From assembly GCF_000189635.1 (NCBI RefSeq), contig NW_002476434.1, forward strand, positions 496,001 to 560,000: 64,000 nucleotides of DNA. The letters run 5' to 3'. Position numbers and translations under genes: made by a program. Positions 3,801-57,581 of this stretch are shown piece by piece. Positions within the stretch are counted from its first letter, which is position 1; each line of letters opens with the position of its first letter. Below the pieces are notes generated by a model. It ran no database searches. It had not been told where the DNA came from and worked only from the letters and a program-made list of their open reading frames with translations. The DNA is from Tetrahymena thermophila SB210 (lineage: Eukaryota; Ciliophora; Oligohymenophorea; Hymenostomatida; Tetrahymenidae).

Positions 3801-4502
3801 ATTGAATATATCAAATTTTTGTACAACTAAAAAGCTGTATACTTATCAGCTAATATGCAGGAAATGATTGGTGTGTAATCTCATAAAAAAGGTAGTAAAA
3901 AAAAGAGAAAATCTAAAAAATAAATAGTTGATGGCACAAATCTTAATCATTTATTAAAGTCAGGATCCTAACAGTACTAAGAAAAGTTTTTATTAAATCA
4001 TTAATAATCAAAATCAAAACTATTATCATCTCAAAACTTGTAACAATATTCCTCCTATTCTTCTTCTTCCGATAGCGACTCTGAATCTTCTGACAGTGAT
4101 AGCAGTAACAATAATGATTAGAATGAGACTAAAAAAGATATTGAACTTAATCCCATTCAACTACCTAAAAACATAGAAGAAAGCAATACTTATCAAGCAA
4201 ATGATGATTAAAGCAACAAAGCCAGAAACGGAACTCTCTTTTATTAGAGATAAAGTATTCCAACGATAGCATCTTCATTTCAAAATTTTATTCATGGCCA
4301 TTCTACCTTTTACATAGAACATACACTAGTTCCTCATAATTAAGAATCTTCAGAATCAGATAAGCCTTTAGATATAAATATTTAAAAAGTTGAATCTAAA
4401 TCTATTGAAAATGAAGAAGAGTTAAAAACTTACCTTGAAAAAAATAAACAAATTGAGAGCTTAAAAAATATTCAAGAAGAAAATAAACAAACAAAAGAAT
4501 GA
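852..4502 (+). CDS. OSCA/TMEM63 (CSC1-like, DUF221) membrane channel protein
   Basis: Predicted plasma- or organelle-membrane protein of the OSCA/TMEM63/CSC1 family, osmo- or mechanosensitive cation channels in plants and animals. The model is three exons (852-2505, 2822-3223, 3343-4502), ATG to TGA, 1071 aa; introns are 2506-2821 and 3224-3342, both GT-AG and frame-preserving. After a Ser/Asn/Gln-rich N terminus (about 150 aa) comes a hydrophobic segment (FFGFLIVVIFVLGG). A long cytosolic loop then ends in APAPADIIWENL (about residue 490), which is the hallmark at the end of the PHM7-type cytosolic domain just before the 7-TM core. Several further membrane segments follow, including one starting SLLSICVVIVNLALR. 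The last 270 residues are a cytosolic tail with a Ser/Asp/Glu run. Family call is strong; ion selectivity cannot be inferred. Upstream of 852 nothing suggests an earlier start. Confidence 0.82.
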
Positions 4503-23300: not shown

Positions 23301-26300
23301 TAGTACATTGTTAATTGAATAAAAAAATATAGAAATAAATTAAAAAAAAAATAAGAAGTAAGTTACACTTTTTTAAATTGAATAGTTTGAGAAAACAAAT
23401 AAAGAGTTAATTTAGCAAAGCTATAATTCATAAATAAGCCAAAAAGGACTAAATTTTAAAAATAAAACTTGTGCAAGTTACTTTTAAAGGTGCTTTAATA
23501 CTAAATTATACTAATAACAAATTGTTTCAATTAAAAAGTAAATAGATGAAAAAACAAATTTCAAAGACTTGCAATTGAAGGAATTACAAAATTTAATCTG
23601 TAAAAAATACTAAAAACTCAATTTTAAAATAGATTTGGACCCTCAGGATAATGAAATCAGAGAAAAAGTAATTTTATTAATTAATTCATAAATTGTTTTT
23701 TTCAATTTTTTTTTGTTAACATAATAGAATAAAATGAAAAAGTACAACAATTTAGACAAAGACATTTTAGCATTGAAAGTTGATGATTTTATTATTGTTA
23801 CATAAGTTTAAAATCAGACAACATATTAAATGTAACAAATCATATAATTTTTGCAGTAATATATTTAGATTTACAATACATTTAAGCAAAAATAAGATTA
23901 GAGTAAATATGAGTTGTAAATCCCAGATTTTTCATAGAATTAATAAGATAGCCTTGCTTAGATAGTAGTTAATATTGTTTGTGAGTAGCCAGGAGAGTTT
24001 TTCAATCTTGTAACGAAAAAAAATAATGAAAATTTATAAAAAATACTTTCCAATTTTGTTTTTTCTCCTGATAATGCTTTTAAAATGGTACTGATAGCTT
24101 TTAGAATTTAAGCTAGGCTTCCTGTTATTATAATGGGTGAAACTGGAATAGGAAAAACTTAATGCATCAAAATACTCTCTGAGCTTTTGAAATACGAATT
24201 TCGAATTATAGAAATAGATTCTGGCTTACATGTAGATAAGATAGTAAATGCAATACTAATGTATTAAAATGATTAGTAATGGGATAATTAGAAGGTTTTA
24301 ATATTTTTAGATGAAGTAAATACTACTTACTGTGTTAATGGAATCATCAAAGAAATAATCATTGATAGATACATTAATGGCGTGAAAATTAAGGATAATA
24401 TAGTATTTGTAGCAGCCTGTAATCCTTACTAATACAAAAAATTCAAAGTAGAATAAGATGACCTCTAAGCAAATAATCTACTTTTATAGTAATCGCAAAA
24501 TAAAAAATCTTATGAGTTAGAATATAAAGTGAAACCTCTTAGGGAAAGCTTTTCATATTGTATCATCAATTTTAAAAGTTTAGAAGAGGAATAGGAGCTA
24601 TTGTATATTGAAAATTTGATAAAAATGTATTAACATAAAAATGAAAAATGCAATATTAGCGAAAAAGAAGTAGAATAATTAAAAATATTACTATTCTAAT
24701 CATAGTTATTTATCCGTAAAGAATCGTGTGAAAGAAGTGTGAGTTTAAGAGACGTGAACAGATTTTTAATTTTATATTTTTATTTCTAATAGAAATATTT
24801 CAGAATTAAATTAGATAACGAAAATAGTAATTATGATCAAAATGCAGTTATGAGTGAAGTAAAACAAAAATCTGTCATATTAGCCCTATACATGGTTTAC
24901 TATTTGAGATTGTAAATCTAAGTTAAAAGAGAGTTATACTTAAAGTTTTATGAATATCTTGTTAACTAAAACTAATGGCCAAATATTAAATTTAAATAAA
25001 CTGTTGATGAAGAATTAAAGTGGTTAACTGATTAATGCGGTATTTAATCGCAATACATAGCAAAAAATAATGCTTTGTAAGAAAATATTTTCTGTATCAT
25101 CATATGCTTACTAAATAAAATACCTCTAATAATAACAGGCGAGCCTGGTACTTCTAAAACTCTAAGCTTTTCTATTGCTCTTAACTGCTTAAAAGGAAAT
25201 TCTTAAAGCAAATTTTTTACTTCTCAACCTACCATTAAAGAATTTTATTATTAAGTAAAATTTCATTAAATATTTATTTTCTAAATATCTTTTCTAAAAG
25301 GGTAATCCTCAAACTACTTCAAAACACATTGAAGACGTATTTAACTAAGCAAGGAAATATCAGGCTTCCATGAAATCTAACTTTAAAGTGATACCACTAG
25401 TGGTTATTGATGAAATTGGATAAGGAGAAGCAAACAAAAATAATCCTAATAAAGTAAATTTATTAATTTAATAATTAAAGTCATAATTGTATGTTTGTTT
25501 AAAATTAAAAAGATACTTCATTATCAGTTGGAAAACTGTGATGTAGCTTTTTTGGCTATATCTAATGTTGATTTAGATGTGTCTAATATGAATAGATGTC
25601 TACATTTATATAGGTAGAAATTCACAGAATAGGACTTAAAAGATTTTATTGTCGAGATCATGAAAGGATTCAATAATTTCCCAAAAGAGATTGAAGAATT
25701 AATATTATAAGTAAATCAAAACACCAAATCCAAATTTTATAAATTTTTTATTTTTTTAAATTTAGATCGCCCAAATCTATCATAAATTTTAATAAGGATA
25801 AAAAACCTAAAAACATGGAACTCGAGATTTTTATTATACAGTTAAATATACTTGTCACAAACTAAATATTTTAATAGAATCAAACACCTAAATTACTAAA
25901 TAAGAAGCATAGAAATTCATAGCAAAAGCTTTCTACAAAAATTTTGGAGGTGATATTTCAAACTAGTAGATCATTATGAATTTGGTTAAAGAAACTTACT
26001 AGTTAGACAATGAAATATTGTAAATCAGTTAAGCTGATTTAATAAGAGAAAGCATAAATTCAATAAACAATGGTGATTTTTATCATTCAAGATTTTTAAT
26101 GCTTGTAACAAAGGATCCTATTTGTTGCACTAATTATGTTCAATCTTTATTTAAATAGGAAAATAAAAAGAGTGAAGTAAGTAATTATTTCTTTAGTAAA
26201 TAAAAAAAATTTATTTATTTATATCAGGTGTTTATGGGATCACATTTTAGAGATGATCATACAGTAGATTTAAGTAAAGATATAAGTAAGTTAAATTCTA

Positions 26301-29300
26301 GAATAGAGTCAGGTATCAATGTAATATCTGTTCAGTAGTATTACTTATATACTATATACTATGATTTCTTCACAATGAATTTCATTAGAATGGGTGAAAA
26401 TAATACTTTTAGAATCAGCTATAAGCAATTCTCAAAGAGAGTTTAAGTGAAACCTGAATTCATCTTTGTTATAATAGCACATCAAGACGAATATGAGCAT
26501 ATGGATCCTGCTTTGCTTAATAGATTTGAAAAATATATAATAAATTTAAAAGACTTGTTAAGTGAAGCTGACAGAAAGCTACTGGTTGAGCTTAAAAAAG
26601 AGTATGTTTTTTATTTTAAAATTTCAATTCAAATTGAGTATTTTATTAATTATTTAGAATAAGATAACTAGAGAATATCTAATCAAATATGAAATTATTT
26701 ACTTTTTCTTCTGAGAGTGAGCTATACAGCTTAGTTATACAGTAAAAGCACAATGAAGAAAATTATGAATGTTTAAAATAAAAGTGTTTGAACAAGCTAG
26801 GAGATTTGACATATAGAACTTACATTTTCCATAATAAAAACAATGAGAACAATGTTCAATACAAAGATTGGTTAAATAGATCATATCTAGATAATTTATT
26901 AAGCTATTTAGAATATTAGAAGTAGCAAATTAATTAAAAATAAGAATCTTTTAAAAGCATTATTTATACAACCTCCTTTATGCATGATAAATACAAATAA
27001 CAGATCGATCTAAAGGGATTCAATTCTAAAATAATAAGCATTAAAATTTATCCTACTAAAGATTTATTTATCTAACAACTAGAAGAATTTTACAATAAAG
27101 GAGATGAAGATTTACTTATAATAGGTGTTGATCAAATATATGAATCGTATAAGAACTTATGCTACTTGCAGTATGAGCTATAATATTATCACTCTTTATA
27201 CCAACAACAAAACAAAAAGAAACTTAAAAACTTAATTTTAACTATTCAGCTATCTTCTTTAAATGTCAATGGATTGGCGTTTTGTGAAAATTGGAACCAA
27301 GTTTAAATTGAAAATCTTCTACCATATGTCTATACAGTTCCTGTGAATTTATCTCATAAAATACTAGAAAAAGCTAACTAAAAGTTAAATTATCGTTATC
27401 TAGTTAACAACAACATTATAACAATCCTAACAGATAAATATGATAGGGATATTTTCTTATATTTTATCTCTACACCAGGTTTTTTTACAAGCTTAATGAC
27501 AAGCATTTAAATTAATGATAGCCAAAATACAAATGAGAGTAATGAAACCAAATATACATACTTAAATAGTAGAATTAACTATTTTAAAAAACTTATTTCA
27601 TTTTATAATGGCATTCAAAGTGAATATTAAATCTAATTACTTAAATTATTTTATGAACAGTTTGATAAAAAGATAAGGATAGATTAAAATTACGACGTTC
27701 ATTGGTCAAAAAATATTTAATTTCCAAATGTTGTCTACAAAAAAGAAGGAAACAATAAAAAAATAAATAAGACTCAATAAATTCCAATCATAAACTTTGA
27801 AAAAATTCTTATTAATCATCTAATAAGTTATTTCGTTGATTAGCTATCTGAAATAGTAGTTATTATGGAAAAAAATAATTTTATTGTAGAGGATTTAATT
27901 ATAGAAAATGAAATAAATGTAGAGTAAAGAAAAAATTAGATAGAAATGATAAAACAATATTTTAATTTCGAGTACAATCAACCAGTTATAAAAATATTAT
28001 AAAAAATACCTGAACCTTTCAAATTAATATAATCAAGATAAATGTATAATTAATTAGAAGAAAACAAGTTTCGCATGTAGTATTTAGAATTAAATAATAT
28101 TAAAAAAGACATGGCATACTTGCTTTTATATATTGAAGATTTTTCAAGAATTAAAAGATTCTTACCCGATTAGATAAAAGAAATTCTAATCATGCTAGTT
28201 AAATAGAATAAATTATAATCATATTAAAGTATTCATTAATTCTGTTGGGATTATGAAGATATTTTAACTGAAAAAGCTGAACTTTTCAAATGTTTAAAAA
28301 TTGATGGTTTTATATAAAAGCTCACTTAATTTATAATAAGCAATAATATAAACAAATAATAATTGAACACATTCTATCAAGATACTTCATTCTAATTCGT
28401 AGCTAATTAACCATTAATGAAAGATGTTAAAAAATTTACTTAATAAGTTAATATTTTCATAAAGTTTTTCTCTTATGACAATATTGATTCCTAAATATTA
28501 ATTTATCTCCAAAAATTAAGAGAGATTATACCAATTTAATTTCAGCATATATATTAGGTAAAATATATTTATATTTTTTTAAAAAATATTTTTATTTTTT
28601 TTATTGTAGGAAATTTCAGGAGAAATTCTTCAATATAAATCCCTTGGATTTATAGAATTATAAAAAAATGTTTAGATAGAGGAGCTTTCTTAAATAGAAT
28701 AATTAAAATTTTCAATTAAGTTTAACAAAATTCATTTAAATGCTAATTTCATCAATGGTGAAGAAAAATAAATTTTTATATAGAATTTCTTAAACTAAAC
28801 TTTTACATATTTACAACAAGTTTAACAAAACTCTCAAAACTATGCTATTGATTCTTAAATTACAAGTATAATAAAATAAGGAGTTAGTATTATTGTTGTT
28901 TAGTTTATCTAAGAAAATAAAGATGTGCTTTTAATTAAGTTAATGTAAGAGTTATAACCAAATTAATAAAATGCATCTAATATTTCTAGCATCTTAAGAT
29001 AATTTTTTGATTAAATTAAAATGCCTATCTCCTCTCCTCTCTCAATTATTTTTGTGGAAACACTATATAATGAACTTATAGCTTTATACAAAAACCCTAT
29101 ATTATAAACATTGAATTTTGTTAGTATTTATCAAGCCTTCAAAGATTCTAGAAAAGATCATGCTAATCTTAGTTAGTTAATTGCTATTTCTTGTCTAAAA
29201 ATCCTTTCTTCAGTAAATTTATTGAAATAAAATTTATATTAAATTTTATACTTTAGTATTTAATAGATCCAATAAAATAGACTATGTAGAATGGCACTTT

Positions 29301-31106
29301 AGAATTCTAAATTTAAAATAAATCATTTTTAGATATTTTGACTTTAATGTCAGATTCGTTTGATGCTTAGGATCCATAAAACAATATTTTTCATAATCAT
29401 ATAATATTATAAATAATAGATTCTTTACCTATTTCCATAGTAGAATATTCAAAAAAACTAGATGATAATAAGTAGAATTAAAATTAGTTAGGTTTCATTT
29501 ATAAATTTATATCCAAATATGAAGATTACTATGCTAAACTATAAAAATTACTTCGTGATAAAGAAAGCTACACTACTATATTTAAGATAAACAATAATGA
29601 ATATAAACCTTAAGAAAAACCAAAATTATTGAATATCTTAAACTTAAACAACAATAATTTAAAAAGAATTTAATTTATTTATCCAATAATAAGTCTAATA
29701 AAAATCATTTACGAGAAATATGCTTATGAATTTAATGAAAATGATTTAAAAGAAATAGATTTATCCTATATATTTTAAAATAGCTTAGAAATAAACGAAA
29801 ATTAACTTCTAAATTCTAAGATTGCAATAGAAAAGGTAAATTATAAAAAAAATATTTTTTTATTATTGTTAATAGTTTTTATTTTTTAAAGTTATTAGAT
29901 TAAAATGATGATGATGATGATGTAAACCAATTAAAACTTTTTGAATTGATATGCCCTCAAAAAGACTAGAATAAAAGTAGAATCTTTTAAGAGATTAAGA
30001 ATTTAATAAATATTTAGAATGAAGCGATAAATCAAATTTCAAGTTCACAAGAAAAATTTATTTTTGATACAACCTAATCTGATTTTATTGAAATAAAATC
30101 TGACTTATTTGATAAAAAACATATTTATTTTTTTTCAGATGGCGAAGGAAAAGTAAACTATGAAGAACTATAAGATTATTACTAAAATGAATTTTTAGAA
30201 TTTAAACCAAAGATATTAGGATTAGATAAAGTTGACTATAAAGTCAAACAATAATTTTACTCATTAGACTTGATATACCATAATTTATAAATTCCTCAAA
30301 AAGAACTAACTTTGGATAAAATTTATAATTTAGAAAATTTAAATATTGACACAGAGTCATGTATTGAAATAAGAAATATTCTGATTAAACTTAATTAAAT
30401 GCTGAAGGTTAAAGGTAATAAAGTTGGCGATTCTGAAGTATTAATAACAAAGCTACTTCAAACAAATAATATAAAAGAAGAATTAGATAATAAAATAATT
30501 TAACTTCTTGACAATTTCACTTGCAACTATCTCTGTTCTTTAATTTAGTATTTTGAAAATAAAATAATGGACTATCTTATAAGCTTATTGATTACGAGGA
30601 AGTATATTGGTGAATAAATTTAATAAGAATCAGACTTAAATAAACTTATTTAACTAATCTAATAAAATTAAATATAGATAAATAGTTTCAAAAATTTGAT
30701 CGGAAGATTTATTATAAGGTTGAACAAAAACTTTAGGGTTGGTTCATTGCAAAACAATCTATTTTAAAACATATTTGACTCAAAGTATTAAAAGGAGTTT
30801 TTTTCATCAATTGAGTCACCATTATGCAGTATTAAATTATAATAGGAGTTTAAGAAATTTTTATTTACAAATGAAGACTCTTATATAATTTATCAAAGAT
30901 TATTAATCTTAATTGAATTAGATAAAAAATAATAATAATAAGAATTATAAAATTTAAAATTAGAATAAAATAAAAATAAAAATAATCAAAACGCAATAAA
31001 ACTATTGATAGATGAAAAATGTTAAGACATGCAGTAAAATATAGATTAAGATGTATAAGATAATAGCTAGTATAACGAAGATTAATCATTTTTAGATGTT
31101 GTGTGA
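17308..31106 (+). CDS. giant RNF213/mysterin-like AAA+ protein, copy 1 (no RZ finger seen)
   Basis: 4416 aa in 11 exons. Introns: 21091-21146, 22432-22504, 25255-25300, 25454-25512, 25711-25765, 26177-26227, 26602-26657, 28558-28609, 29213-29256, 29836-29891. All are GT-AG and the spliced length is an exact multiple of three. The AAA core shows: a degenerate Walker A, KRAGEGKTY (about residue 1690, split by an intron); GETGIGKT (2234-2241) with Walker B FLDEVNT (D2292, E2293) and sensor FVAACNPY; GEPGTSKT (2568-2575) with Walker B VVIDEIG (D2643, E2644), sensor LAISNVDLD and NMNRC; then HMDPALLNRFEKY. This order and these variants (SK instead of GK in the second site, DEIG, LLNRFEK) match the AAA3/AAA4 modules of RNF213. 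The ~1700-aa C-terminal part has neither a RING nor an RZ cysteine cluster that I can find. It ends in a Gln/Asn/Asp-rich tail. It is paralogous to the gene at 34619. Confidence 0.85.
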
Positions 31107-31689: not shown

Positions 31690-32575
31690 ATATTGAGAAA
31701 AAAAATTCATTTTTTCAGAGAATAAAATCGTAACAATTATTTTAATAATGTCCTTTAAATAAATGATTTATAATTAAATACTTTTATTTCTTAAATTTGC
31801 TTTTGGATTTAAATTATGATTGAAATATCCTTATTTATTTAAAATAGATATCTCAGGTCAATTTTTCCCATTTTATATTACATAATCTTGATAATTTGTA
31901 TCATTAATTGATGGGGAAATCCAATTATACCTATTCTTTTTAAATTACGATTATCATTTGGTGAAATAAATATCTTTTTTTTCATAAAAAAGCTTTTCCT
32001 ATCCACTATAAGTTTTTAATTAAGATATATAGGTCATAATTCATAGATATTTTTAGATTTTGAAATAATCCATTTTATTTCATTTCAAAATATCCCTTTT
32101 TACTTGATTGATAATATAAATCATTAATTGCATATTATAATTTACCCATCATAAGTTGGAAAATAAATATATTAGAAATCAAAAATTTAAATAAATATCT
32201 AGCAATTTTTGAATATATTTATTAATAGTAACTTAAAATAATGATGTCTTAAAAATATGTCTAAAATAAAAATTATTAATCCATTTTGCTATTAAATTTT
32301 TCATGAAAACAAATAAAATAAGATAAGGAAATTGAATAAATTAATGATAAAACTTATTAAAACAAGCAATTTTATTTTGTTCATTTTGATTTAATGGATA
32401 TTTTAAAATTTGGTTCATATAAATTAACTTATCATTTTTAAATTATATTTCTCTTTTTTAAAAATAATAATTTATTATTGTTATAAAAGAGGAGAATTTC
32501 TTTTTTAAATTATCATCAAATTATTATATAAATACTCTCACCTTAAAGAAAGTATTTATAGTTTTTAAGCAGGGT
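31690..32575. repeat. direct repeat, copy A
   Basis: It matches copy B (33058-33360 plus 33830-34480) in collinear order. Shared blocks are AAATAAATGATT, TTTGGATTTAAATTATGAT (TTGGATTTAGATTATGAT in B), TTTTTCCCAT, CCAATTATACC against CTAATTATACC, GGTGAAATAAATATCTTT, AAAAAAGCTTTTCCTA, GTTTTTAATTAAGATATA, TTTTTACTTGATTGAT and AAATCATTAATTGCATATTA. The divergence is substantial but the alignment is continuous. Confidence 0.8.
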
Positions 32576-32579
32576 ATTA

Positions 32580-33000
32580 AACAATGATTTAAATAGAAAT
32601 AGCTGAAAAAGTTATCCTTAGATACCATGTTTACCCTCTATCAGAAGGTATGCTATCTTTTTGAAGTAAATTATGATTAATTAGAAGAAAAAGTTGAAGA
32701 AAAAATAATAATTAAATTCTCAAAAAAATCAAAGTAATTTAGTATATTCAAAGGGAATATGAATTTTTAAACAAAATCAACCAACCATTATTATTTGATA
32801 AAATTATAAATGAAGAAGTGGATTTCTTTATTTATCAACTAAAAATTGATTCAAAACTAATTTGAAAAAGCTGTACTTTAAAAGAAAATTGTTTATGTAT
32901 TGCTTTATTCATATTCACTGTAGCTCCTATTTTTATTACAGGAGAATCTGCAATATCAAAGTCATTAAAGTTTACAATAACTTTTTTAAAACTTTTTGCA
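32580..33000 (+). pseudogene. decayed fragment of RNF213-like AAA core
   Basis: A collinear, closely similar copy of two parts of the second giant gene. About 32600-32725 matches 41735-41870 (region just after the AAA3 module), and about 32725-32990 matches 42200-42455 (the AAA4 P-loop region). The ~330 bp between them are deleted. It is broken by a frame-shifting change with an in-frame TGA near 32663 (TTTTTGAAG where the intact gene has TTTTGTGG) and by a second TGA near 32862 (ATTTGA where the gene has ATTTCA). The P-loop reads GESAISKS instead of GEPGTSKT. No promoter or start is seen. Similarity is closer to the downstream than to the upstream giant gene. Confidence 0.85.
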
Positions 33001-34618: not shown

Positions 34619-37600
34619 ATGTTTAGCATTAATAATTAACGACTATCGAATATTCAAAAAAGTGGACTTGATGTTGGATAAGTGGAAGATTAGAAAGTAC
34701 TTGAAAATAATTATAAAGATATTAAGATATATCCAAATCTCTTAAATGACTAGCACTCAAGAATTGAAACAACCAATTAAAATAAATCTATTTAAATCTA
34801 ACAACCTTAAATAGATAATAGATTATCCAAAGAAAGTGAAATATCAAAAAATTTAAATAGCAATTTAAACATTAACCTACAAAGCAATATTTAGTAAAAT
34901 CAAAATAAGATGACTATATACTTGCAAACTCCTAATAACGAATCTTATTTAAATTTAAAAAGTACTAAAGTTCAATTAATAAATTCAACTAAAAAAACAG
35001 AGTTAAAGTTAGCAAATCACTACTAAGAAGATGCGAATCATCCTCTGCTTCGAAATTGGAAAAAGGAAAATGTAGAACAAAAATTGTATCTGTATTCTTA
35101 AAAGTAGCTTTCAGAAATATAACAGTTGAATTAAAATGAGTTTTTACTTATTTTTGAGAATGATTAAGGTTCTAAAAAACTATAATTCACTTTACCATAA
35201 GATTCTGATGTGTTCTTTATTGATTCAAGTACTTTGGAAGATAAGCTCAATCAAGATGATAAAGCCTATAATAAGTAAATTAACAGTGAGTGTTTAACTG
35301 AATTTGCTCTTTAGTTACTTTTAAAAGATAGTTTTGTCAAATTTATAAAATTCTGTAATTAATTTGACACAAAGTTTAACAGAGGAAAATTTGTAAACTA
35401 GCTTATTTCATTTGGATTTAAAGATGCCAATCAAGAGTTTGACCTAAAAACATTTTTGATCTTCCTGTTTGCGTAGTCTGTTAATAAAGAACTATCTATA
35501 ATTACTCCAAGAATTAAAATTTATGATATCTTCATAAATCTATATAAAGATGAAAGTGATAGGAAAAGAATATCTTAAGCTTCTGATTAATTAAATAACT
35601 GTAAAGACTGGCATGCTATCAAGAAACTTATTGAAGAAGTTTTTTTAAATGATGCCACTTTTGAACAGTCTAAAGACTATTATAAGATAAAAAACACATT
35701 TAATTTAAATATATGCGCTAAAGCTATTTTTATGTCAAAGATTAAAACAGAATTCGAACCCAATTTGAATGAAATATTTAATTAAGAATACATGGATGAT
35801 AGTGGAATGACTACTGAAGATTATCGCGAGTTGTTCATTGGATAAACTTTTTAAATAAAAAATGAAAACGCTCTCTAATATTTAGAATAAAACATTTCCT
35901 TAATTAATTTCTTATTTGAAAAAACATAAAAATTTGATATAAAGGCATACGAAAATGTAAAAAAGACAGTTTATTCAGTAGTTATAAAGTATTTTAATAA
36001 CAAAGATTTGATTGAAACTTAAAAATTATTGAGGAGCAAAAAATAGATATTTGAAAAATTGCATATTGAATCTGATTATTTTTTAAAATAATTAAAATTT
36101 AATGAAAAATTATTAGAAATAAATTTAGAGGATATAAAATAAGAAGACATTTAAATCTTTGACTCTATATTAAATAGTTAAAATAATAATTTAGATGTGC
36201 TTTTACAAATTTTGTCAAGGATTAAAGTATTAAACTTGGATGAAAAATCAACAATGAATAAAATTTTTGAAACTTTAAACAAAAAGATAGTGCATTAAAT
36301 GTAGTAAATAAATTAGGGTTAAGATTAACAATAAAAAATGGGGTAACTCAAGCAAATCTTGTACAAAATATTTATTAATAATTGGAATAATTTAGAAAAC
36401 TCTCAAAAAATTAAGTAATCTATCAAATTTGAAGTTTGTAGATATGACTTTTAGCGCCAATACAAACAGTAGCTAGTAGAAGAAGAAAAAAGTTTATTCA
36501 CTTTTTTCATATAAAACTAAGACATAATTTAAAACATTTTAGAAATTGATAGCTCAATATAGAAAGAATTAGAGTTACCATAAGATGTAAAAAGTAAATT
36601 AATAGAGAAAATGTATGAAATTTTATTAGAAAAAATATACAAAATTGAAGATAATTAGGAGTTTTGTAAATTTTTAAAAAACATGGGTGATGATAGTATC
36701 AAGCAAAAAGTATTTGAAAAGAATAGTAATCTAGTAATAAAATCTTTGTAAGATAAAGCACACTAACTAATTTAAAAGGGATAAATTAAGTAGATGGAAG
36801 AATGGAACATTTAATATATTTTAGAATAAAAAGTATTTGAGCTACTTTTTTCAGTATTAATAAATAAAAAAGATTTCAACAAATCGGAGATATTCTCAAT
36901 AATAAAATAAATAATTTCTAAAAATGAAAATTTATAGGGTACAACATGGAAAGATTATAAGAAAATAAATGAAAAAAAAGATATATTTAAAAAGTTTATC
37001 GAATTTTGTGGTATAAAAAAAACAAATGGCTTTGAGGTATTTGAGACTTTCTATAATCAGTATAGTAAATTAAAATGTTTTATATAACTTATGAAAAATC
37101 TAAATGTTACTGATATAGATGATTAAAAATAATTATTAGATAGCGTAGACAAAGACGAAAATTAAGAAGTAAAAGCTATTTAAGAAAAATTCAATAAAAT
37201 TATAGATGAAAATAATTCATTAATTGGTACTTCCTAATATTTAGTAGACCTCAAATTATTTGACTAAATTTCTAACACTTATTCAATAAAAAATTAAACT
37301 ATTGATGAGACTATGAATTAAATAAATAGCTTTGCTCTTCCATTTTTAGAGAGCATATATCGATATTTACTAGAGCAAGAATTTCCAGATCTAGTATAAG
37401 ATTTTTAAAATGAAGAAATTGAATAATTTAAAAATGATAAAGATGTTTAAACAAGAAACTGTTATTAATTCCTAAATACACATTTTAAAGATCATTTTAG
37501 TCTAAATAAAGAAATTTTATTCTAAGAATATGAAAACTTAAGTATGATTTGTGAATAAAAGTTTTAAAAAAAAATTTCTTCTACTTTTTTTATTTAATTT

Positions 37601-40600
37601 ATTTAGTAGGGATATCATAAAATTATTGATTATGAGCTGCTAACTCAAATATAAAAAACTGCTAAAAATTTAAAAATGGTTTTTCCTCCTAATTATTAAA
37701 AATAATTAGAAAGTTTATAAATACTTATTTCTTCTTAGGATCTCTCAAAAAAGTAATTTTTTGAAGGTACTCAATAAATATAAGTATATTTAGATACTTA
37801 TATAAATGAGACAGTGTAAAATTGTGAAAATCGTTAAGTAGATAGAAAATTTTTAAAAGATTAAATTATTCCATTTATCTCACCTATTTTCAATGTAATG
37901 GATTTACACTCTAACTTTAAGAATGAGGTTGATTTATAGGAGCTATTATTCGATGATGACAATGATCTAGCTAATAGAATATAACATTATATTTAGATTA
38001 AAAAATATCTTGAAGAATTTAATAAATCTTTAAACAGTAACATATTTGTTTACATCCAATAGATTATACTATTCTTTTACAAAGATGAAAAATGTAAAGA
38101 AATCAGATAGAAAATAGAAGATATAAGCAAATTTAAAGACTATATATAGTAAAAATTTATGGAATTAGGAAAATCTCAAGCATAGAATTCTGTAAAAGTA
38201 CTTTAGATGTTTATGTAATTTGCATTAATTCATATAAATGTAAATGATGCTTATCTTGAGAAAAATTAATCCTAAAAAGTTAATAAACAAGATAGATCTT
38301 AAGCTTATAGCTATTAATAGTAAGGAGATGAAAGAAATTACAAAGTTACATACAAAACACAAAAAAAAGTTAACAATAAAGAGAAAACTGAAGAGTATAA
38401 TGAAGAGCAAATATTTTAAATAATATAAAGATTAAATATTATTAGTGGATAGTAATTAGATGAAGCATATAAATCAGAGACAGAAAAAGAACAGTTTAAA
38501 GAAAACAGAAAAAGATTGGAAGAAATTTATACTCTAATCTAAAAAAACTTGATTTAGATTTTAGAGAAATATATTTAGTATGGATATCTTGATGGATTTA
38601 TAAAAGAAATAGATATATTAATAGACGATAAGTAAAGTAATATAGAATCAGTCATTAAAAATATAGAAAATATAGTTGAAGAGAAAGAGAATTAAATATA
38701 AGAATGGAAATTAGTAATTGAAGAAGCTTAAAAATAATATCCATTCTTGAAATTAATAATTCCATAGTGTTATCCTGATATATTAAGATATTTTTAGAAA
38801 CTATTAAATGTTAATGCCAACTAAAATAGTTCAGATACAATTAAAAACAGTATAAAAATAAAACACCAATAATTTGGGTAGTCTAATTCTATGTTATAAT
38901 TTAATGTTGAAGAAATGATTACCTTTTATCACATGAATACAGAAAGCTTAGCTAAAGAACTTCTTAAAAATAAAGATTAAATTAGATTAAATACCATTAA
39001 TGAAAAAATTTCCTTATTAGGTTAGTATTTAAATAAATAATTTTAATAAGAAAAAAAAGTATTAAAAATTTCAGATAAAACTTTTCGAAAGAATTAATAC
39101 GATAAGCTAGAGGCTAGCAAGATTTAGTGTGAAAGTTATGGCGATTTGTGTAAATAACTACTTCTCTTCTTTGGAGATAAAAACAAATAACCCGATAAAT
39201 TATAATTTTTCTTCGCAAACTAGCAGACAACTGAGATGGATATAGAAGCATTTCTAAACAGAGTCATATACTTTGAGATGGAAAATGAATCGAGACACTT
39301 TTTTATTATTGATTTTAAGAAGTTAAAATATCAAGTTTAAAAATTTGCAACAGAACAAATAGATAAATATATGAATACAGAAGATAAATAGTTTTAAACT
39401 AAAAATAAATTAATTATTTTGTATTTATTTAATCAAAATAATGAATACTCTAATGATTAAGATGATGAAACTACAGAGGATTGCATCAGGATACCTCTTA
39501 CTGAAGAATATAAACGAAAGACTCCATAATATTAAAATTAAAATATCCATTTGTTTAAATCACATTAAGCAGGTAAATAGATAAAAATTTAACTTTTTTA
39601 TTATCATTTAAAATTTAATTACTTAATAAAATTAAAAATATTAACTATATAATAGGTGTTGGTAAAACATTTCAGATATAAAAATAAATCGAATTAACAA
39701 ATTAACTCCTTATAAATATTCCAGCTCATTAATTCTAAAATATCGATAATCTCCTTAAGATTTTGAGAAGTAAGAGAAAATAAATATAAAATTAACAGTA
39801 AATTCATGGAATACATATTGAAATAATATATGATTAATAGGATAAAATAAGTTTACTATTATTTCAAATTTTGGTGTTGAAGTGCATCTCATTCAACTAG
39901 AATAAATTTTTCAACTTTTCATCTTAGTCTCATTTTTATGTTGAATAATCGAATTATTATGGAATAAAATATGCTAATATACTAACTCACATATAATCAA
40001 TTTAATCTAATACAATTTATTTCAATTTATCATAATTGTCTGTTTCAAACTAATTCACATCAGATGATTAAACAATGCTCAGATATTTAAATGGTTTAAA
40101 ATAAGGGGCGTAATATTTGATGGATAAAGACTTTGTAAGATTTGAGGCTTTCCCAAATTAAAAAGTTGAAAATAAAAAAATATTTACAGATACCGAAGCG
40201 ATTTAATTAATATAGCTTTTCTTTAATAAATACATGGAAGAATATAAAATAAAATAGAATTTAACTTATTAGCATATAGTAATGTTCAAATAATAATTTG
40301 TTACTCAAATAAAAGAAATGGAGTAAGATCCAAATTATACGAGCTATTAAATAAAAGAATTAATGAATAATGCCTCTCCAGAATAAATAGAAAATATAAA
40401 ATAATTAAGGTATAACATCATTAATATTTTCTTAGAATAATCCCTTAAAAATACATTTCTTAATTCATCAAATTAAAATTAAAGTTAAAATTCAAAAAAT
40501 TACTATGAAACTTACATGAAAGAATTATACGAAAAAATTAGCAATGAAATAAATATTTAACCAAAAACTTCAAAATATAATTGGAATTATAAGTAATACC

Positions 40601-43600
40601 AGACTGAAGGTACAAATACAATCAGTACACATTAGAATATTTAAAAATAAAATTAGTAGAATCGTGATTCATCAACTTCTTTGTTAACTTGCTTGAATAG
40701 ACTATTTAGTTGCTTCAAAAATACCTCTTCTTAAAAGTATTTTACTTCACCTAGTTTACAATAAAGTGAGATGAAATATTTGATTAAAGCATAAACCAGT
40801 GATCATAAAGATAATAATAAAGTTGCTTCTTAAATTGAAATTGAAAATCTGAAGCTTTCAGACGATGAAGAGAGAATACAATAGATGGTATATTTATTTA
40901 TTGTTTCTATTTTATATTATTTATTGAATAATTTAATAAAAAGAATACCATACTCTAGTATGATCAAGCTATAAAGAACTTAATATTCTTCATTAATGGT
41001 AGTATAATAGCTGCGATATTTAAAGATGACAGAGAAGATTAAATAATACTTAAATTAGAATAATTGATGAGAACTTTTATATCATAGGTTAACAGAATAT
41101 CTAATATTAAGATAAATATTGATGAAGAGCTTTAACTAAGAATTCCACATATCGGATAAACGGAAGATGAATATACTCTTCTCAGAACACTTGTTTATAT
41201 ATGTTCTAGAAATCCTAGTAAATTTATAGATGAGAAATCTTAACAACAAAAACCTGAATTAAGCAGAATTTTATAAGAAAGAGCTTTTACAAAAGATAAT
41301 ACTTGCAAATTAATATAAATAGCATTCAAAATATACTCAGGCGTGCCTTTAGTAATTATGGGAGAGACTGGAATAGGAAAAACTGTAAATATTTAAATTT
41401 TAACTGAAATTATGGGGTTTAGTTTCGAAGTACTGAGATTATCTGCTGGAACTACTGTAGATTAAATAATTAAATTTATGAAAGACATTAAAAAGAAGTA
41501 TCACGATAATTCAAAAGTAGTCATATTTTTTGATGAAATAAACACTAACCAAAATATTTATGGACTACTCAAGGAGATTTTTTTTGATAAATCTGTTAAT
41601 GGTAAAAAAATATTTAAAAATAACCAAAATCTTGTTTGTATTGCTGCTTGCAATCCTTATGAGTACGTATTAAAAAAGAATCAAAATGGTTTTGAAGCAG
41701 GGTATTTAACAAGGATTTAATTGGAAAAAACTAAAAAAGCTAATCTTACATATCATGTTTACCCTTTGCCAGAAAGTATGCTACCTTTTGTGGTAAATTA
41801 TGGTTAATTAGAAGAAAAAGTGGAAGAGAAAAATATTTATTAAATGCTCAAAAAAATCAACTTTAGAAGTAAGTACACCAGCTAATCAAATTAATTAGAT
41901 GTTAATATGAAGAAAAACTTTGATAATACAGTAAACATTTTCTCTGAAGAAGAACTTAGTTGTATATAATAATTAATAATGGCATCTTAGCAATATATTC
42001 GCTGTCAATAGGGTACTTCTAGAAGTGCTAGCTTAAGAGATATAAGCAGAACAATAAAATTCATTGAGTATTTTATGAAAGTTTACTTTTTGAAAAGGGG
42101 AGATACTAATACTCAAACACAAAAATAAAAATCTTGTATACTTGCTCTCTACCTCTGCTATTAGATAAGGCTAAATTCACAAAAATAGAGAGAAGAATAC
42201 CAAAAAGTGATTTAGTATATTCAAAGCAAATATGAATTTTTTAACAAAATCAACAATCCTCTATTTTTTGATAAAACTATAAACGAAGAATTGGATTTCT
42301 TTATTAATCAATTAAAAATTGATTCAAAACTAATTTCAAAAAATAGGGCTTTAAAAGAAAATTGTTTTTGTATAGCTTTATGCATATTAACTAAAACTCC
42401 TCTTTTTATTACAGGAGAACCTGGAACATCAAAAACATTAAGTTTTACATTGGTTATAAATTCTTTTAAAGGAATTTCCTCCTCTTCATAATTTTTATAA
42501 GGATTTCCATCTATCAAAGAGTTCTACATTTAAGTAAAATAAATAAATAAATTTACTTTTTGTTTAATTAAATTTTTTATAAGGGAAATCTTTAAACATA
42601 ATCTGAGGAAATTAGATAAGCATTTTAGTAAGCTAAGCAAGTCAAGACAGAAGGAATCTTACCAGTTGTATTCTTTGATGAAGCTGGTTAAGCTGAATTG
42701 AGCGAAAATAACCCAAATAAAGTAAATATTGAAAAATAAAATTTTATTAAATTGTTAAATGATTTAGGTTTTGCATGAGCTTCTTGATGAAGGGGATGTG
42801 AGTTTCATAGCAAGTTCAAATTATAGCTTAGATTATGCTAAATAAAATAGATGTTTACATTTATAAAGAAACAAGAATAACCTTGAAGATCTGAAAGAAT
42901 TTGTAAATTAGTTAGTTTGTTCAAACACTAGCTTGAAAACTGTTTTAAAAGAAGTATCTTTATTTTTTAAAAGAAAATGAACTTAAAAAATATTATTTTT
43001 TTTATAAAAAGTTTTGCCAAATTTATTTCAATTTTCATGGCAAGTTAAAGAATTACATTCACAATTCAAGAGATTTCTATTTTACAATCAAATATTGTGT
43101 TTCTATGTTTAATAAAAATCCATCAATTTTCTAAGAAGAAAAAGATCTAGTCAACTTACTTTACAGGGCTATGATTAAAAATTTTAGCGGTTACGATTAA
43201 AACACAAACCTAATAATAGAAGAATTTAAAAAAATTTTTTAGAAATATAAAGATGATATTTAATAAGTAAATACTCTAGAAATAATTGAGGAGTGCTTTA
43301 AACCAATATGTGAAGATTTTGTTTATCACTCAAGATTCCCAATGCTAATAACTGATAACACAGATTAAGGAATTTAATTTGCAAAGTTGTAGTTAGAGAA
43401 AAATAAACTTTAGTCACAGGTGATATAATATTTTTGCATTATTATACCAACTTATTAAAATATTATTGATGTTATAAAAGGTTAAAGCTGGTAGTCATTT
43501 CAAAAAAGATTATTATGAAGATAAAACAAGAGAAATAAGCTCTATCAATGCAAGCATAGAATAAAATTACAGTATCATTTCTGTTAATTAAGATTACATC

Positions 43601-46600
43601 TATGCTGTTTACTATGATTTCTTTACTATGAATTTTTCTAGAATTGGGGATAAATAAAAATTTAGATTAAATTATAAATAAATTTAGACTAGAATTGAAG
43701 TCCCATAGAATTATCTCTTTATAATGATTGTCACAAAAGATTAATATATGAAAATGGATCTTGCACTTTTAAATAGATTTGAGAAGCATGTTTTCTCTGA
43801 AAAACTGATATTCTAAAAATAATAAAAAGCCATTATTGATAATATAATGAATGAGTAAATTTTATATTAATCAATAAATAAATAATTTCTTATTATTTTA
43901 ACTTTTTTATCATTTAAAAAAATAGGTTCAAAATTATCAAATAGCCATTTTAGAAGGATAAAAACTTTTTGAGTTTTATAAAAAAATCTTATATTTTTGG
44001 TATGATCTAAGCTGAGTGCAAAAAACTTGAGGAATCACAATATAATTTAGTAGAGGAATTTTATCAAAAAGATTATTTATTAGAGAAATGTAAAGATTTG
44101 ATTGGTAATTTATCAAAAAAATATGATATTATTAGACTGAGAAACAAAGATACCATAGACTACTTTAATGCTTGGAATTAAAAAATATATTTAGATAACT
44201 TGATTGAGTTCATCAAATTTGAAAAAAATAAATAAAAGAAAGACTTTCATTCAATAATTTATACAAATTCTTATCTTTATAGCAATTATAAAGTATTACT
44301 AAAAGAAATTGGCTTTGAAACTTTACTTATTGACTTAAGTTTAATAAAACAAAAATTTGTATTTTAATAACAAACAGAAGATTACTACTAAGGAAATTAT
44401 AATTTAATGATAATTAAAATATCTTGTTTAGAAGAAAATCCTTAAAATATTTATTATGTTAGATCTTTTATAAATGAATGCAGATAAAAGTATTAGAATA
44501 TCAAGCAAAAAAGCATAATCATCATAATTTAATATTCAAACAGTTAGCATTATAGATTACCTTTTTGCTTAGAATGGGAGTAATATCAAATCGATAACTT
44601 GTTGCCTTATGCTTATACGCAGTCATCTTTATAAAAGTCCTCTGAAATTTAAGAAATTAATTAGATTTTAAATTATAGAAATATTCATGGCAAAAACGAA
44701 AGATAAATCTTAGAAAATAAGAAAATATTTAGCTATTTTACTTAAATGCATGGTTTTTGTTCCAAATTAATTTAAAGAATGACTTTTAGGTTTGAGCCAG
44801 ATAAAGAATAATTTTATTAATATTACGAGAGTATAAGAGAGATATTAGAGAAACATTTTTAGGGATAGAATTCTTTTGTTTATAACCATTTTTATGACTA
44901 TTTTGTTTAATATTTGAAACAGAACAGCGATTAAGATGATGTATGGTCATATAAATTCGACTTGATTAAAGGTTTAAATTATGAAAAGTAAATGATTAAC
45001 TACTTGAAAAATAAAGTTGAGAGTGTTTTATTAATAATATTTTCTAAATATGAAGATTAAAACTTACTGACAAACTTCCACAAAATTTAGAAATTACCTC
45101 ATCAAAAGCAAAATCTATACATGGGTATATTTTAAAAATACATAAATTAAACTATTTAAATATCAGATGGCTCAGAAATTAAACGTATTCCATACATCGA
45201 ACTTAAATTTATATTCTCAAATATTATTTACAATAAAATAGAATAAACAAAAAAAATTTATGAATCTAACGATACAAATTAGGTATATTAAAATCATTTT
45301 TCTGAAGAAGTTAAGATTTTTAAAGATATCTTGAATTTTGATAATTTAAATGACTATATAGAAGATTATTTATTTTACAGAGATATTAAACTAGATATTA
45401 ATAATAATAAAATTTAATATTATGCGATATTTTGTGATAAATTACTAAAATAGTTGAATTAAAAGAAATTCTTTAAAGAATACTACAATATTCATGAACT
45501 TTTTTGGAATAATGAAAAGATTCTCACCGAAATATTAGATCTAATTTATATTTTTAATTGTCCCCAAAAAACTACTGACTTGGCATAATTTTTAGTAGAT
45601 AAAGAGGTTTTTGTAAACAAAAAAGACATATTAGAGAATGTTTCAGAGTATTATTATCTTGTACTATAAAAAATGCAAAATGTACAAATCTAATAAATTG
45701 AGCATTTCATTAGAATATTTCCTTTACAGAAATCTGCTTAGAGATTTTAAATCATAAGCTAATGTTATAAGTCTTACGGAAATCTGATAAATATAAAGGT
45801 AAATAATTTATTTTATTAAATTGTTAAAATTCATGATAGCAGGTAAAAAAAATAAATTATAAACTCTATTAACTTTTGCAGTTTTAATTTTTGCTAATTA
45901 AGTATATTCATACATACATGCAAACATACATATATACACACAAAATCATATAAAATATTTAATTAATTATCTATAAATATATAATATTAAATAAATAAAA
46001 ATATATTTAAAAAAAGGATTTACTAATTATTTTTAAGGAGATGAAAAGTGAATAAATAGCTACTTAATTATAATATTTCTACTAAAAAGAGTCTTTTTAT
46101 AGTTATATATTTATTGCAACTTATGGCATTCTTAATAAGAACAAAGTTGAAATAGATTTATGTTTTAAACATCTAATAATTCAAATTATAGAATATTTTG
46201 ATATGAAGTAGTTCGATGAATAAAGATTGGTTGACATTAATTTGATAATCTCATACTTCTTAAAATAGATAAAAGAAGAAATAGATTAAAATTTTCTTAA
46301 AATATTTAATACTTTATTAGCGGAAGGCTTTAGTAAATTGCTATTTAAGAATAACTACTTGCGAATTCTAGATGAAATACTAAAATAAAAAGCAGTGAAT
46401 TCTGAAGATAAGTTTAGTTAATTACTAATTAGAATAGGTGAAATTGTCTTCTAAAAGAATGATCAAATTTATTAATTAAATCCGAATCATATAATAACTA
46501 ATTTTAAGAATCAAGAAAAATTACCTTATACAACTGTATAATTTACATTTAGTTCTATTTATTTTAGGTTAATTGCGCCGGTAAATATTTTTAAATATTA

Positions 46601-49600
46601 TTTTCGTTTTTTTAATTTACTATTTAAATAGGAAATTTCAAAAATTTTAAAAGAAGGCTATGAAAATGATACATTTGAAAATAAAAACTTCAATTAAAAT
46701 GAAATTAGTTTATTTTTGGTATCGTTAGGTGATAACAATAATATTAATTAAATAGATAAATAATATTTACAATTATATTTACTGAAGCTTATATTCAATG
46801 AAGATTCAAGTTTCTTAAAGAAAATATAGAGCAATGAGGTATAAAAGAGACCTCAGTTCCTATTTATTGACGGCTTTAAAAAAGTGCTTTAGTCAAATAG
46901 TTTTGATCCTTATGAATTTCCATGGTGCAAAGAAAATTATATAAAAAAGCTAGATGAATTGTAAAATTAAAAAAATAAATAAAACTATTTGTTAATAAAA
47001 AATTTTTTATTATTAAAAAATAGGGAGTAAAATAAATAAAACTTTTTAGTACTTGCAACATTAAAAATGATGAAATAGGAAATCAGAGATAGTCTCTTTA
47101 ATGAATAATAAATTTAGATTTACAATAAAACTCAAAATCTAAAAAATTAATCTAGTCTAGTTAAATTTATTATTTATTTAGCTTCAACTGTGATGGATCA
47201 AAACGACTAAATAAATTAATTTAGATAATTCATTGGTCCATAATCAAGTTAATTTATATAAAAAATTTACATTCCTTTCAATAGCTTGACTAAACAATAA
47301 ATTTAAGCTATTGAAATAAAAAATGTGTTAGATTCTGTTAAAGATAAAACAAAGGTCTATTAATGCACCTGTGGTTTTGTTTATGCAGTAGGTAATTGTG
47401 GCAAGAATATGGTTACAGTAAAGTGTAATAGCTGCAATAAAAATATTGGAGGTGCTAATCATATTAATATTAATTAAGAATATTAATAATAAAATATTTA
47501 AGAATAGATAGGATTTATTCACGAGTTTATTGAAGATAAATATTTTGCTCCAAGATAAATAGATCCTTTGGCTTTTAGATTTGGAAATTTGGTTATTTAT
47601 TGCTTAATGTTTATATCCTCAAATAAAAACTAGTAGGATGAAAAGAATTACATTGAAAAAATGACCAACTAGTGGAAAATAATAAAAGAATTTTTAAAAT
47701 TAACTGATGAATAATTACTGGTCATAGCTGTTTAGCTTCTTTAATAGTTATTGAATATAAAATAAAATGATTTTACTATTTTGAATAATAGAAACTAATT
47801 TGAATAGGAATTTAGTTTATTTTGTAAAAATTTCCCATCTTAAATCAAATAGATATTAGAAGAATTTGATAAACATTCAAAAGCTCATTTCGAATAAGAA
47901 TAAAAATATCAATTGTTTTAATCTTTAATAAGAGATAAAGTCAAAACAGTTTTATTTTATAATACTCTATAGTATTATTAAATACCTTAATTTAATGAGT
48001 TAGAAGGCCAGTATCTTAAAAGAGATTACAAATATAGATTTATTATCTAGAATAAAGATAATATTTCTAAAATTAAATATATTTATCCATTGATATACTT
48101 TTACAAAAAAATACATTAATTTTATTCTAAAAAATTGACTGAGAAAATCTCAGAATCATACACTTTATAGAAAATTGTTGAAAATAAACCATATTTACTG
48201 AAGTACTATGATGAAAATGTTAAGGAGTGCTGGAATAAGGTTTTACATACAATTTTATTATTTTTATTTTTACTTAACATTTTTAATTTTAAAAAAGCTA
48301 TGTGAATTTTATCCTTAAATGTAAATTGGATGTAAAGTTTAACCAACACAAAAGCTCGAAACGGCAGATTAAGTACCTTTAGGAAATTTTTTAATAATTA
48401 AAAAGGAAAATGAAACATAAGCAAGTGGAGGCGATTAACTTCATTTTTTTATTACAGAAATAACATCACTTTAAAATAATGTTTTAAATGAGATTAAAAA
48501 CTTGAAAACATAACCTAAAGAAATTTTTGAGTTATATGACGATGATATGATTACAATTTCACAAAACTTTAACACATAAAATTTAATTTATTTTGAGAAT
48601 TTACAGTTGGAAATAGGCTAACAAAATAAAAATATGAATACAAAATTATTAAAAAATTATTATATTTTTGATTAGCTTTTAAATAAGAGTTTAATTAAGG
48701 AATTCTAAGATTCAAACTACTTTGAAATAAAAAAAGATACAAAAAATTTAGGAATCATATATAGTAATAATATTTTATAAGGTATTGATGTATAAAAAAT
48801 TAAAAGACTAAATCCTAAAACGAAAGAAAAATTCTTAAAGCAATGCCTATAGCAAGAATAGAAATTTGAAATTAGGGAATAGCTTTTCTTACTTCATGAT
48901 CTTATGAAAAAAATGCCCTAACAAAAAATTGAACCATTTTTAAAAAATAACTTATATATTGAGCTAGAGAAAAATGGATTTATTGAAGATGAATCATATT
49001 TTAAGGAATGCCTAAGATATTTCGAGGTTTGTGAATTATTTGATTTGCTTGTTATACTAGAAACTGAATTAATGGATGATCTTGTTTAGAATTTAGATAA
49101 AACATACAAAGACCAGCTTTCAGAAAATATGTTTGAGAATTTTATAAAAAAATTTAAATAAAGAGTTTTAGATGTATTAAATAAAAATAGTAATGATGAA
49201 AACGAAATTAAATCTAATAAAGATTTATAATTAATATTAGGCAGATATATTATAAGAAATTTAATAGCATAGAAATAATAACCTAATACCACAGAATAAA
49301 ATATTTTTGAATATATTAATTACTTTCCTGATTAATAATATTTAGATCCTCTATTACTACCTGGAGAAGATGAAGTTAAATTTGAAGATTTAGAAATTAA
49401 ACATAAATATATTTTTAATTTATATGAAAGACTTTCTAAGGATTTTAAATAATAATTAGATTTAAAATAAAAATAACTTTAATCTTAAAAATAAGAAATA
49501 TCTAAAAATATTAATAATTAACAAATGAAAATATTTGGTTTTGAAATGGAAAAAAAGCAGCTTAATGGTAAACTAAATAATATAAATGAACATGTACCAT

Positions 49601-49671
49601 AAAATAATAATGATGGATCAGATGATGATGATGATGATGATGACGACAATAATAATGATGATGCAGTGTGA
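34619..49671 (+). CDS. giant RNF213/mysterin-like AAA+ protein with RZ zinc finger, copy 2
   Basis: 4759 aa in 11 exons. Introns: 39573-39655, 40888-40943, 42534-42583, 42722-42767, 42954-43011, 43420-43480, 43855-43925, 45799-46037, 46581-46631, 48240-48297. All are GT-AG and the total is an exact multiple of three. AAA core: degenerate Walker A QAGVGKTF (about 1651-1657); GETGIGKT (2202-2209) with FFDEINT (D2259, E2260) and CIAACNPYEY; GEPGTSKT (2553-2560) with VFFDEAG (D2624); then MDLALLNRFEKH. Near the C terminus is an RZ-type zinc finger, CTCGFVYAVGNCGKN followed by CNSC and NIGGANH (C4011, C4013, C4022, C4031, C4034, H4043). That order of a giant AAA core followed by an RZ finger is the RNF213 signature; RNF213 is a ubiquitin ligase acting at lipid droplets and on bacterial lipid A. 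No RING was seen. The protein ends in an Asp/Asn run. The function in this organism is unknown. Confidence 0.9.
45905..45955. repeat. CATA/ACAC microsatellite inside an intron
   Basis: TACATACATGCAAACATACA followed by TATATACACACA lies in the longest intron (45799-46037, 239 bp) of the downstream giant gene. The slippage-prone tract may explain why this intron is three to five times longer than its neighbours. Confidence 0.7.
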
Positions 49672-56300: not shown

Positions 56301-57581
56301 GAAATTTTCAAAATCGCTTTCAGCTTTAATTTAAAACTCTTCGGTTGCCCTTGTATTGCACTCTATCAATTCTATTTTATCAAGCTTTTAGTTGAACCTA
56401 GCTGACATTAAGCAGTATGGAGCTTAGTTATTCATCATTTTATTATACTGATCAATTTATTTTTAAGTGAGAAATGAGAATCTGTAAAACTTATCATTAG
56501 AATAAACTGTATAAATATACAGAATAATAGCCAAAAGAAATCTGATTAAAATACTGTATTAAATTTATTATTTCAAGTAGACTGAGAGAAAGAAAATAAT
56601 TATGGAGTATGAGAAACTAATAGACTTTAAAATTAAATTTGATCCTTGAATACCTATTTTAAAATATAATAAAATAAGAAAATGAGCTAGATTTAAAAAA
56701 ATACAAAATAAATTTGAATAAAACGATTATATAAATGATTATAATAATTTAGTTATATTAGATGTAGTTAGTTCTATTAAATATTAAAAACTTAAAAATT
56801 TAAACTGTAACAAGTAATTTGATCTCTAACTAAAATGATATTTATTTAACTTAAAATAATTTAAGTCTTTTGCTCTTTTAAGATTATAGAAACTATTTTT
56901 TAATGAGGATAATTGAAATTACGATAACAATTTTAAGAATTATTAATACCATTCATTAATCCACCCGAATTTATTTTAAAGACTTATTTTCAGGTAGAAT
57001 AAAACTTTTAAAGAGAGGAATTTATCAAAGGAGATAAAGACTACAAAAAGTTTAAAAAAACAATGAAGAAGTAAATACTTACCTAGTATGATAAAATTGG
57101 AAACTGTAAATCCTCTGAGAAAGGGGTTATTTGTCTCCTTTTCTAAATTATCTAACGTTTGATCATATATTTCATAGGCAGTAATCGTAATATAAAATAT
57201 CTGAAAAGTAAAGTAAATCCAATTAATATACCGCTTTTTCAAGTTTATTAGTATTATAAAGAAAAGATCCATTAAGATGAGAATGACCATTACGATTATG
57301 CTTTTTTGCTCGCTTTGAAAAGAATAAGATGTAATAAATGTAATTAAATCAGACGATACAATAATCATATGCATAGCTAATGTTATATTTGCTTAGTAAA
57401 TGTAATGTATCCTATTAAGCTAAAAATACTCTTTTTCTATTTTGACATTCCTAAAATGTAATGTGTATTTATTAACTTCCTTTTCCGGTTTATAGAAAAT
57501 GCCCTTTCCAGTAACTTCTATTTCTTATTAACCTCCTTCTTTGTTAAAAATTTCTTTGATTCGTTTTATTTTTTCATACAT
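53388..57581 (-). CDS. membrane protein with degenerate histidine-kinase architecture, copy 1
   Basis: 1254 aa in two exons (57581-57083 and 56653-53388). The 429-bp intron is phase 1 and falls in a Gly codon within the membrane domain. The N terminus has about six hydrophobic segments, including IIVMVILILMDLFFIILI and SYSIIIFFLSVYL. A PAS-like stretch follows (APYCLMSARFNQKLDKIELI then NTRATEEF), then Gln/Asn/Ser-rich linkers. A helical plus ATPase-like part (about 590-740) reads like a sensor kinase: KIQLSEL, then QIKLFIDQE, STDQNFLQQILVNIITYCYK. In the N-box the Mg-binding Asn of true kinases is Tyr703; I find no H-box histidine and no G-boxes. The C terminus has conserved DSIKRWVD. It is probably a pseudokinase receptor or scaffold at a membrane. 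Paralogue at 59362. Confidence 0.72.

Follow-up and report, generated by a model that had tools for sequence, protein, structure and literature searches.

A giant RNF213-like gene and its paralogs

The stretch of DNA considered here, 64,000 nucleotides from Tetrahymena thermophila SB210 (hereafter the window), is part of a 101-Mb genome in 445 contigs and carries a giant gene, W34619, the predicted product of which is, judged by its sequence, a member of the RNF213 family. RNF213, also called mysterin, is a human moyamoya disease gene and an antimicrobial ligase. Read under translation table 11, the window contains no open reading frame of 200 aa or more, as against 69 under table 6, in which TGA is the sole stop; its G+C content runs from 18 to 28% in 2-kb steps. 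W34619 is a real gene, the main parts of which are given in Table 1. The preliminary description of this locus spoke of a single giant protein of 4759 aa; the single giant protein stands, the exact figure does not, since the splice model gives 4758 aa and the larger number may include the stop. GTAA starts 35 of the 44 introns in the models of this gene and its paralogs. The other starts include four of the nine introns in W34619 (GTATAT at 40888, GTATCT at 42954, GTGATA at 43420 and GTTTTA at 48240), and its 239-base intron at 45799-46037 could be placed in more than one way. The AAA3 motifs and the RZ finger discussed below each lie within a single exon, and are independent of the doubtful splice sites.

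The preliminary description did not take in the wider family. W34619 is one of eight giant RNF213-like genes, and in six of the eight either the finger or at least one of its catalytic residues is missing. Four different AAA-side queries of the genome each return the same eight loci (two in the window and six on a further contig, C17), and one query also matches a decayed fragment in the window; the survey covers this one genome. All eight giants are recovered at intron penalties of -3 and -6, seven at -9 and six at -12, one of the last with only 3238 aa, and in the model of C17_433 a small intron next to the AAA3 Walker B motif has probably been overlooked. Pairwise identities among the giants lie between 19 and 36%, save for two of the tandem genes at 83%. 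The second giant of the window, W17308, is 26% identical to W34619, and no missed RZ exon was found for it in three frames at 28300-30100. The decayed fragment corresponds to residues 2300-2560 of W34619, in three pieces of 55, 86 and 71% identity that fall in two frames.

Table 1. Coordinates of W34619, its motifs and its paralogs (window positions unless contig C17 is named)
Feature	Position	Strand	Remarks
W34619, RNF213-like giant gene	34619..49671	+	10 exons, 4758 aa plus stop; codon-usage and splice-site search, table 6
Exon 1	34619..39572	+	N-terminal 1651 residues, no recognised domain
AAA2-type Walker A, AGVGKT	39569..39669	+	residues 1651-1656; interrupted by intron 39573-39655
AAA3 Walker A, GETGIGKT	41361..41384	+	residue 2197
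AAA3 Walker B, VVIFFDEIN	41517..41543	+	
AAA4 Walker A, GEPGTSKT	42414..42437	+	residue 2548
AAA4 Walker B, VVFFDEAGQAE	42665..42697	+	
Exon 7, post-AAA4 stretch with LLNRFEKH	43481..43852 (LLNRFEKH 43766-43789)	+	RNF213 match
Exon 9	46038..48239	+	houses RZ finger; otherwise without database match
RZ finger core, C4010-H4042	47364..47462	+	PF20173 match; residue roles from PMC11549300, PMC12075652
W17308, paralog	17308..31106	+	10 exons, 4428 aa; AAA core intact, no RZ finger
Decayed remnant of another copy (AAA3-AAA4 part)	32542..32979	+	between W17308 and W34619
Five tandem giants	C17:411167-496684	-	4617, 4644, 4644, 4728, 4564 aa
C17_482, tandem giant	C17:482704-496684	-	zinc-type cysteines kept, both catalytic positions lost
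C17_467, tandem giant	C17:467690-482309	-	zinc-type cysteines kept, both catalytic positions lost
C17_892, solitary giant	C17:892837-907973	+	5017 aa, 2 exons

The AAA core and the RZ finger

An RNF213-type AAA core with the motifs GETGIGKT, GEPGTSKT and LLNRFEKH had been claimed for the protein, and all three are in place, at residues 2197, 2548 and 2914. The exon of 525 aa that holds AAA3 and the start of AAA4 has RNF213 as its top match in the PDB, with an expectation value (E) of 1.6e-37 over residues 110-514, against 2.4e-9 for midasin; the match thus reaches well beyond the P-loops. Exon 7 matches RNF213 alone at E up to 1 (best E 1.1e-6), as does a profile of the C-terminal halves of the six C17 paralogs (E 8.5e-45, over positions 41-431 of 2130, again at E up to 1). 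The family assignment therefore holds outside the generic P-loops. A profile search of nine of the ten exons against Pfam (the 46-aa exon 4 being left out) places AAA_5 (E 6.6e-8), AAA and AAA_7 above their cut-offs, while a midasin lid falls short of its own. The RZ finger, PF20173, comes out at E 3e-14, its 52.8 bits exceeding the cut-off of 27. A profile of the AAA2 region from four giants found no match in the PDB at E up to 10, and the matches to RNF213 thus do not take in AAA1 and AAA2.

The core is conserved across the family. The Walker A lysine and Walker B glutamate are intact at both AAA3 and AAA4 of W34619. All eight giants keep Walker A at AAA3 and AAA4, the DE of the AAA3 Walker B, a G.GK[ST] motif at the place of AAA2 and the sequence LLNRFEK; the AAA4 Walker B reads DE in five and EE in three.

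The zinc finger had been placed near residue 4011, and its core is indeed found at residues 4010-4042, so that AAA3, AAA4 and RZ follow one another in the vertebrate order. In human RNF213 the zinc ligands are C4505, H4509, C4525 and C4528, with C4516 as predicted nucleophile and H4537 as general base (PMC11549300); the mouse equivalents are C4451, H4455, C4471 and C4474 as ligands, C4462, identified by cross-linking, as nucleophile and H4483 as base (PMC12075652). Measured from the first cysteine, the human spacing is +4, +11, +20, +23 and +32, and the same steps from C4010 of W34619 lead to F4014, C4021, C4030, C4033 and H4042. In other words, C4021 and H4042 align with the mammalian nucleophile and general base, and three of the zinc positions (C4010, C4030 and C4033) are kept.

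In the other giants the finger is far less well preserved. A genome-wide search at E up to 10, in which one candidate passed the first look, gave no second PF20173 match, and the family was likewise unscored in searches of the six C17 finger regions and one exon of W17308. The homology of these fingers rests on their position, on the PF...YQC context and on hhalign. The pattern PF...YxC.C...C..C occurs in seven of the eight giants and in none of 1600 shuffled proteins, the pattern having been written after the fingers had been seen. An hhalign profile of the tandem fingers scores 79.9% against W34619, the best of 168 control windows reaching 4.9%; against C17_892 the same profile alone does poorly (7.8%, out of register), and with W34619 added it scores 79.0%, in register, with 1.8% for the best of 109 controls. 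Hidden Markov models (HMMs) of the E3 parts, finger region and N-terminus of the tandem set found nothing at E up to 1 when the three other giants were searched together with shuffles. Without the shuffles, the best single domains among the matches listed scored 7.3 bits in W34619 and 6.0 bits in C17_892 with the finger model, and 6.5 bits with the N-terminal one, all swamped by composition bias. As to the active site, the nucleophile Cys is in register in five of the eight (W34619, C17_892, C17_448, C17_433 and C17_411), and the base His, and with it the Cys and His pair, in two (W34619 and C17_892). From their residues, C17_482 and C17_467 are natural RZ-dead RNF213-like proteins.

Compared with the mouse and human RNF213 chains (6TAX, 7OIM, 8S24, 9G08 and 9JW1), W34619 shares the Walker A and B motifs of AAA3 and AAA4, the post-AAA4 stretch, the register of the RZ nucleophile Cys and base His, the chain order and the size. 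The proposed likeness to vertebrate RNF213 is, then, borne out for the AAA core, the RZ finger and their order; the RING, CBM20, N-arm and E3 scaffold were not detected by sequence, the zinc-ligand His is replaced by Phe and accompanied by a CxC, and eight such genes stand in the ciliate genome. Pfam finds no RING in the nine exons searched, and two regular expressions for a RING-like Cys/His pattern find none in any of the eight giants; nor is there a Pfam match for CBM20 in the N-termini of W34619 (exon 1), W17308 and C17_892. Outside this family, ZNFX1 carries a helicase and NFX1-type fingers. It is the other animal RZ protein and has an RZ-type finger in common with W34619 (PMC11549300); it is not known to have the RNF213 AAA core.

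Predicted mechanism, role and alternatives

In mammals, ATP binding at AAA3 and AAA4 boosts the activity of the RZ finger, the Cys of which takes ubiquitin from a ubiquitin-conjugating enzyme (E2) such as UBE2L3 by transthiolation (PMC12075652, PMC7311170). Since the residues for both steps are kept, W34619 is held to be an ATP-gated, RING-less RZ transthiolation ligase of the RNF213 family, with partly non-catalytic paralogs, a reading to which we assign a probability of about 0.72. On this account AAA3 and AAA4 would bind ATP and gate the ligase, Cys4021 of the RZ finger would receive ubiquitin from an E2 and His4042 would help to pass it on, with zinc presumably held by a CxC...CxxC set that includes C4012, instead of the CxxxH...CxxC. 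Mammalian RNF213 dispenses with its RING in auto-ubiquitylation and in the ubiquitylation of bacteria (PMC7311170, PMC11549300), which makes a RING-less enzyme plausible. The seven paralogs keep the AAA machine. Among them C17_892 may still be catalytic. The other six look like AAA proteins, five of them with a finger that has decayed and is perhaps structural and one with no finger at all; they might serve as coat proteins, as partners, as independent AAA machines or in other pathways.

Several observations weigh against a ligase of this kind. The one zinc His of the finger is lost, Phe4014 standing in the place of His4509 (human) or His4455 (mouse), and mutation of that ligand abolishes the activity of mammalian RNF213 (PMC11549300, PMC12075652), although an additional cysteine, C4012, at +2 from C4010 may replace it. 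The zinc set of C, H, C, C is thus incomplete. The strong RZ match is, moreover, to the Pfam profile; direct PDB matches to RNF213 are weak (E 0.26 for mouse and 0.82-0.91 for human, amid unrelated hits). A profile of seven N-terminal parts found no counterpart of the N-arm in the PDB at E up to 10 (an N-terminal fold could be kept without likeness of sequence), and exons 1, 2, 8 and 9, searched singly in the PDB, gave no credible match. Neither exons 8 and 9 nor the paralog profile match the E3 scaffold (the back, shell, core and E2-docking C-terminal domain). Exon 9 would be the counterpart of the E3 module by its place in the chain; in a tblastn search of the genome it finds only itself, from which it appears that the E3-side halves have diverged beyond the reach of tblastn. 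The RZ finger of W34619 is probably a working one.

What such a ligase would be for is a separate matter. A role unrelated to microbes (in lipid droplets or mating, by recall or guess), with a family expanded by drift in tandem arrays, concerns the role only and is compatible with the ATP-gated ligase; it is a possible account, if one short of even odds. Five of the eight giants do lie in one tandem array, a decayed copy is present in the window, and a Pfam search of ten exons from genes nearby gives no hint of immunity. Against it stands the pattern of change in the youngest pair, C17_448 and C17_433. The genes of this pair are under purifying selection: by Nei-Gojobori counts, which carry no error bars, the ratio of non-synonymous to synonymous rates (dN/dS) is 0.46 overall, 0.28 in AAA3-5 and 0.34 in the finger, where there are just 51 synonymous sites, and is highest in the first 500 residues (0.75) and the short C-terminal tail (0.96, over 79 synonymous sites). 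The N-terminus of primate RNF213 is under positive selection of the arms-race type (PMC11549300), and the fast N-terminus of the ciliate pair is partly like it, with the limit that its dN/dS stays below 1. The antibacterial or phagosome-related role that had been suggested for W34619 might be entertained, tentatively and as something rather unlikely. Less probable still is a multi-gene RNF213 system, in which W34619, and perhaps C17_892, would place ubiquitin and the RZ-dead giants would serve as ATP-driven coats, sensors or partners on phagosomes or on bacteria that intrude. Were it true, cell-autonomous defence of the RNF213 type would predate animals and need no RING. More generally, the job of RNF213 before animals could become testable in a single-celled organism. 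The AAA core together with an RZ active site, no detectable RING and natural RZ-dead paralogs would help in telling the old parts of RNF213 from the new, and in asking if the RING was acquired afterwards and if the AAA machine functions in its own right. The RZ zinc site also occurs here in a naturally varied form, with CxC or CxxC for CxxxH.

It is improbable that W34619 is instead an RNF213-family AAA protein with a purely structural RZ finger, that is, an AAA remodeller or coat protein devoid of ligase activity. To its credit, six of the seven other giants have no Pfam RZ score yet retain a finger-like set of cysteines, the zinc His is lost in W34619 itself, and in mouse cells RZ-mutant RNF213 still coats Toxoplasma vacuoles, if not bacteria (PMC11549300). 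A structural finger would, however, have no need of the two catalytic positions that W34619 and C17_892 keep in exact register.

There is little to be said for two adjacent genes wrongly joined, one with AAA3 and AAA4 and the other with the post-AAA4 part and the RZ finger. The model does split at about 42980/43105 with intron penalties of -9 and -10 and stays whole at -3, -6, -7 and -8. However, W34619 is kept as one gene because its AAA-side and post-AAA4 matches fall in order on one RNF213 chain (9jw1, residues 2029-2431 and then 2705-2825), and because a single open exon runs, in each of the six C17 paralogs, from GLRDFY, just beyond the break in W34619, via LLNR to the finger; one gene is, on this showing, much more likely than two.

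The view that W34619 is instead an AAA protein of the midasin or dynein kind, its zinc finger being unrelated, draws on the generic Pfam names and the midasin lid under its cut-off. It is largely refuted and has a negligible chance of being right, the RNF213 E-value being 28 orders of magnitude better than that of midasin and exon 7 and the six-paralog profile matching RNF213 only. Midasin and dynein rings likewise have several AAA units per chain, and are not known to carry an RZ finger.

Relatives and neighbouring sequence

In a tree of the AAA3-AAA4 region, the window pair is supported at 97/93 and the tandem five at 100/99, with C17_892 on a long branch. Human RNF213 has no firm place in this tree (support 73/72), the human and C17_892 branches being long and the human composition deviating. 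The Cys and His pair is found in W34619 and C17_892, both of which stand apart from the tandem five, so that on the simplest reading it would have been lost separately in W17308 and in the tandem set.

A scan of viral_contigs with the AAA3/4 exon found no viral relatives; with alignment A5 it gave four partial matches around the AAA3 P-loop, spanning query residues 17-143 at most. Prokaryotic relatives were absent from a scan of genome_contigs. Among the open PMC titles and starts of abstracts that were listed, two of the lists being far from exhaustive, none gives an account of RNF213 in ciliates, preprints and automated database annotation being outside that search. RNF213, mysterin and moyamoya go unmentioned in the available main text of a paper on the interactome of the last eukaryotic common ancestor (PMC13261697), and zebrafish mysterin is the only such protein named in the accessible part of a paper on huge proteins (PMC11573180).

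Elsewhere in the window, a gene at 852-4502 on the plus strand encodes a PHM7_cyt domain (E 2.9e-13), the cytosolic domain of a 10TM putative phosphate transporter. Predicted proteins of 1254 and 952 aa lie on the minus strand at 53388-57581 and 59362-62220, and Pfam gave nothing for their scanned exons at E up to 0.01. Among the matches listed, all of them on contig C4, telomere-type CCCCAA repeats are found where the contig begins and from 465612 onward, the reversed-pattern control being uninformative for a repeat. These repeats, together with the reading under table 6 and the G+C content, fit a Tetrahymena-like ciliate.

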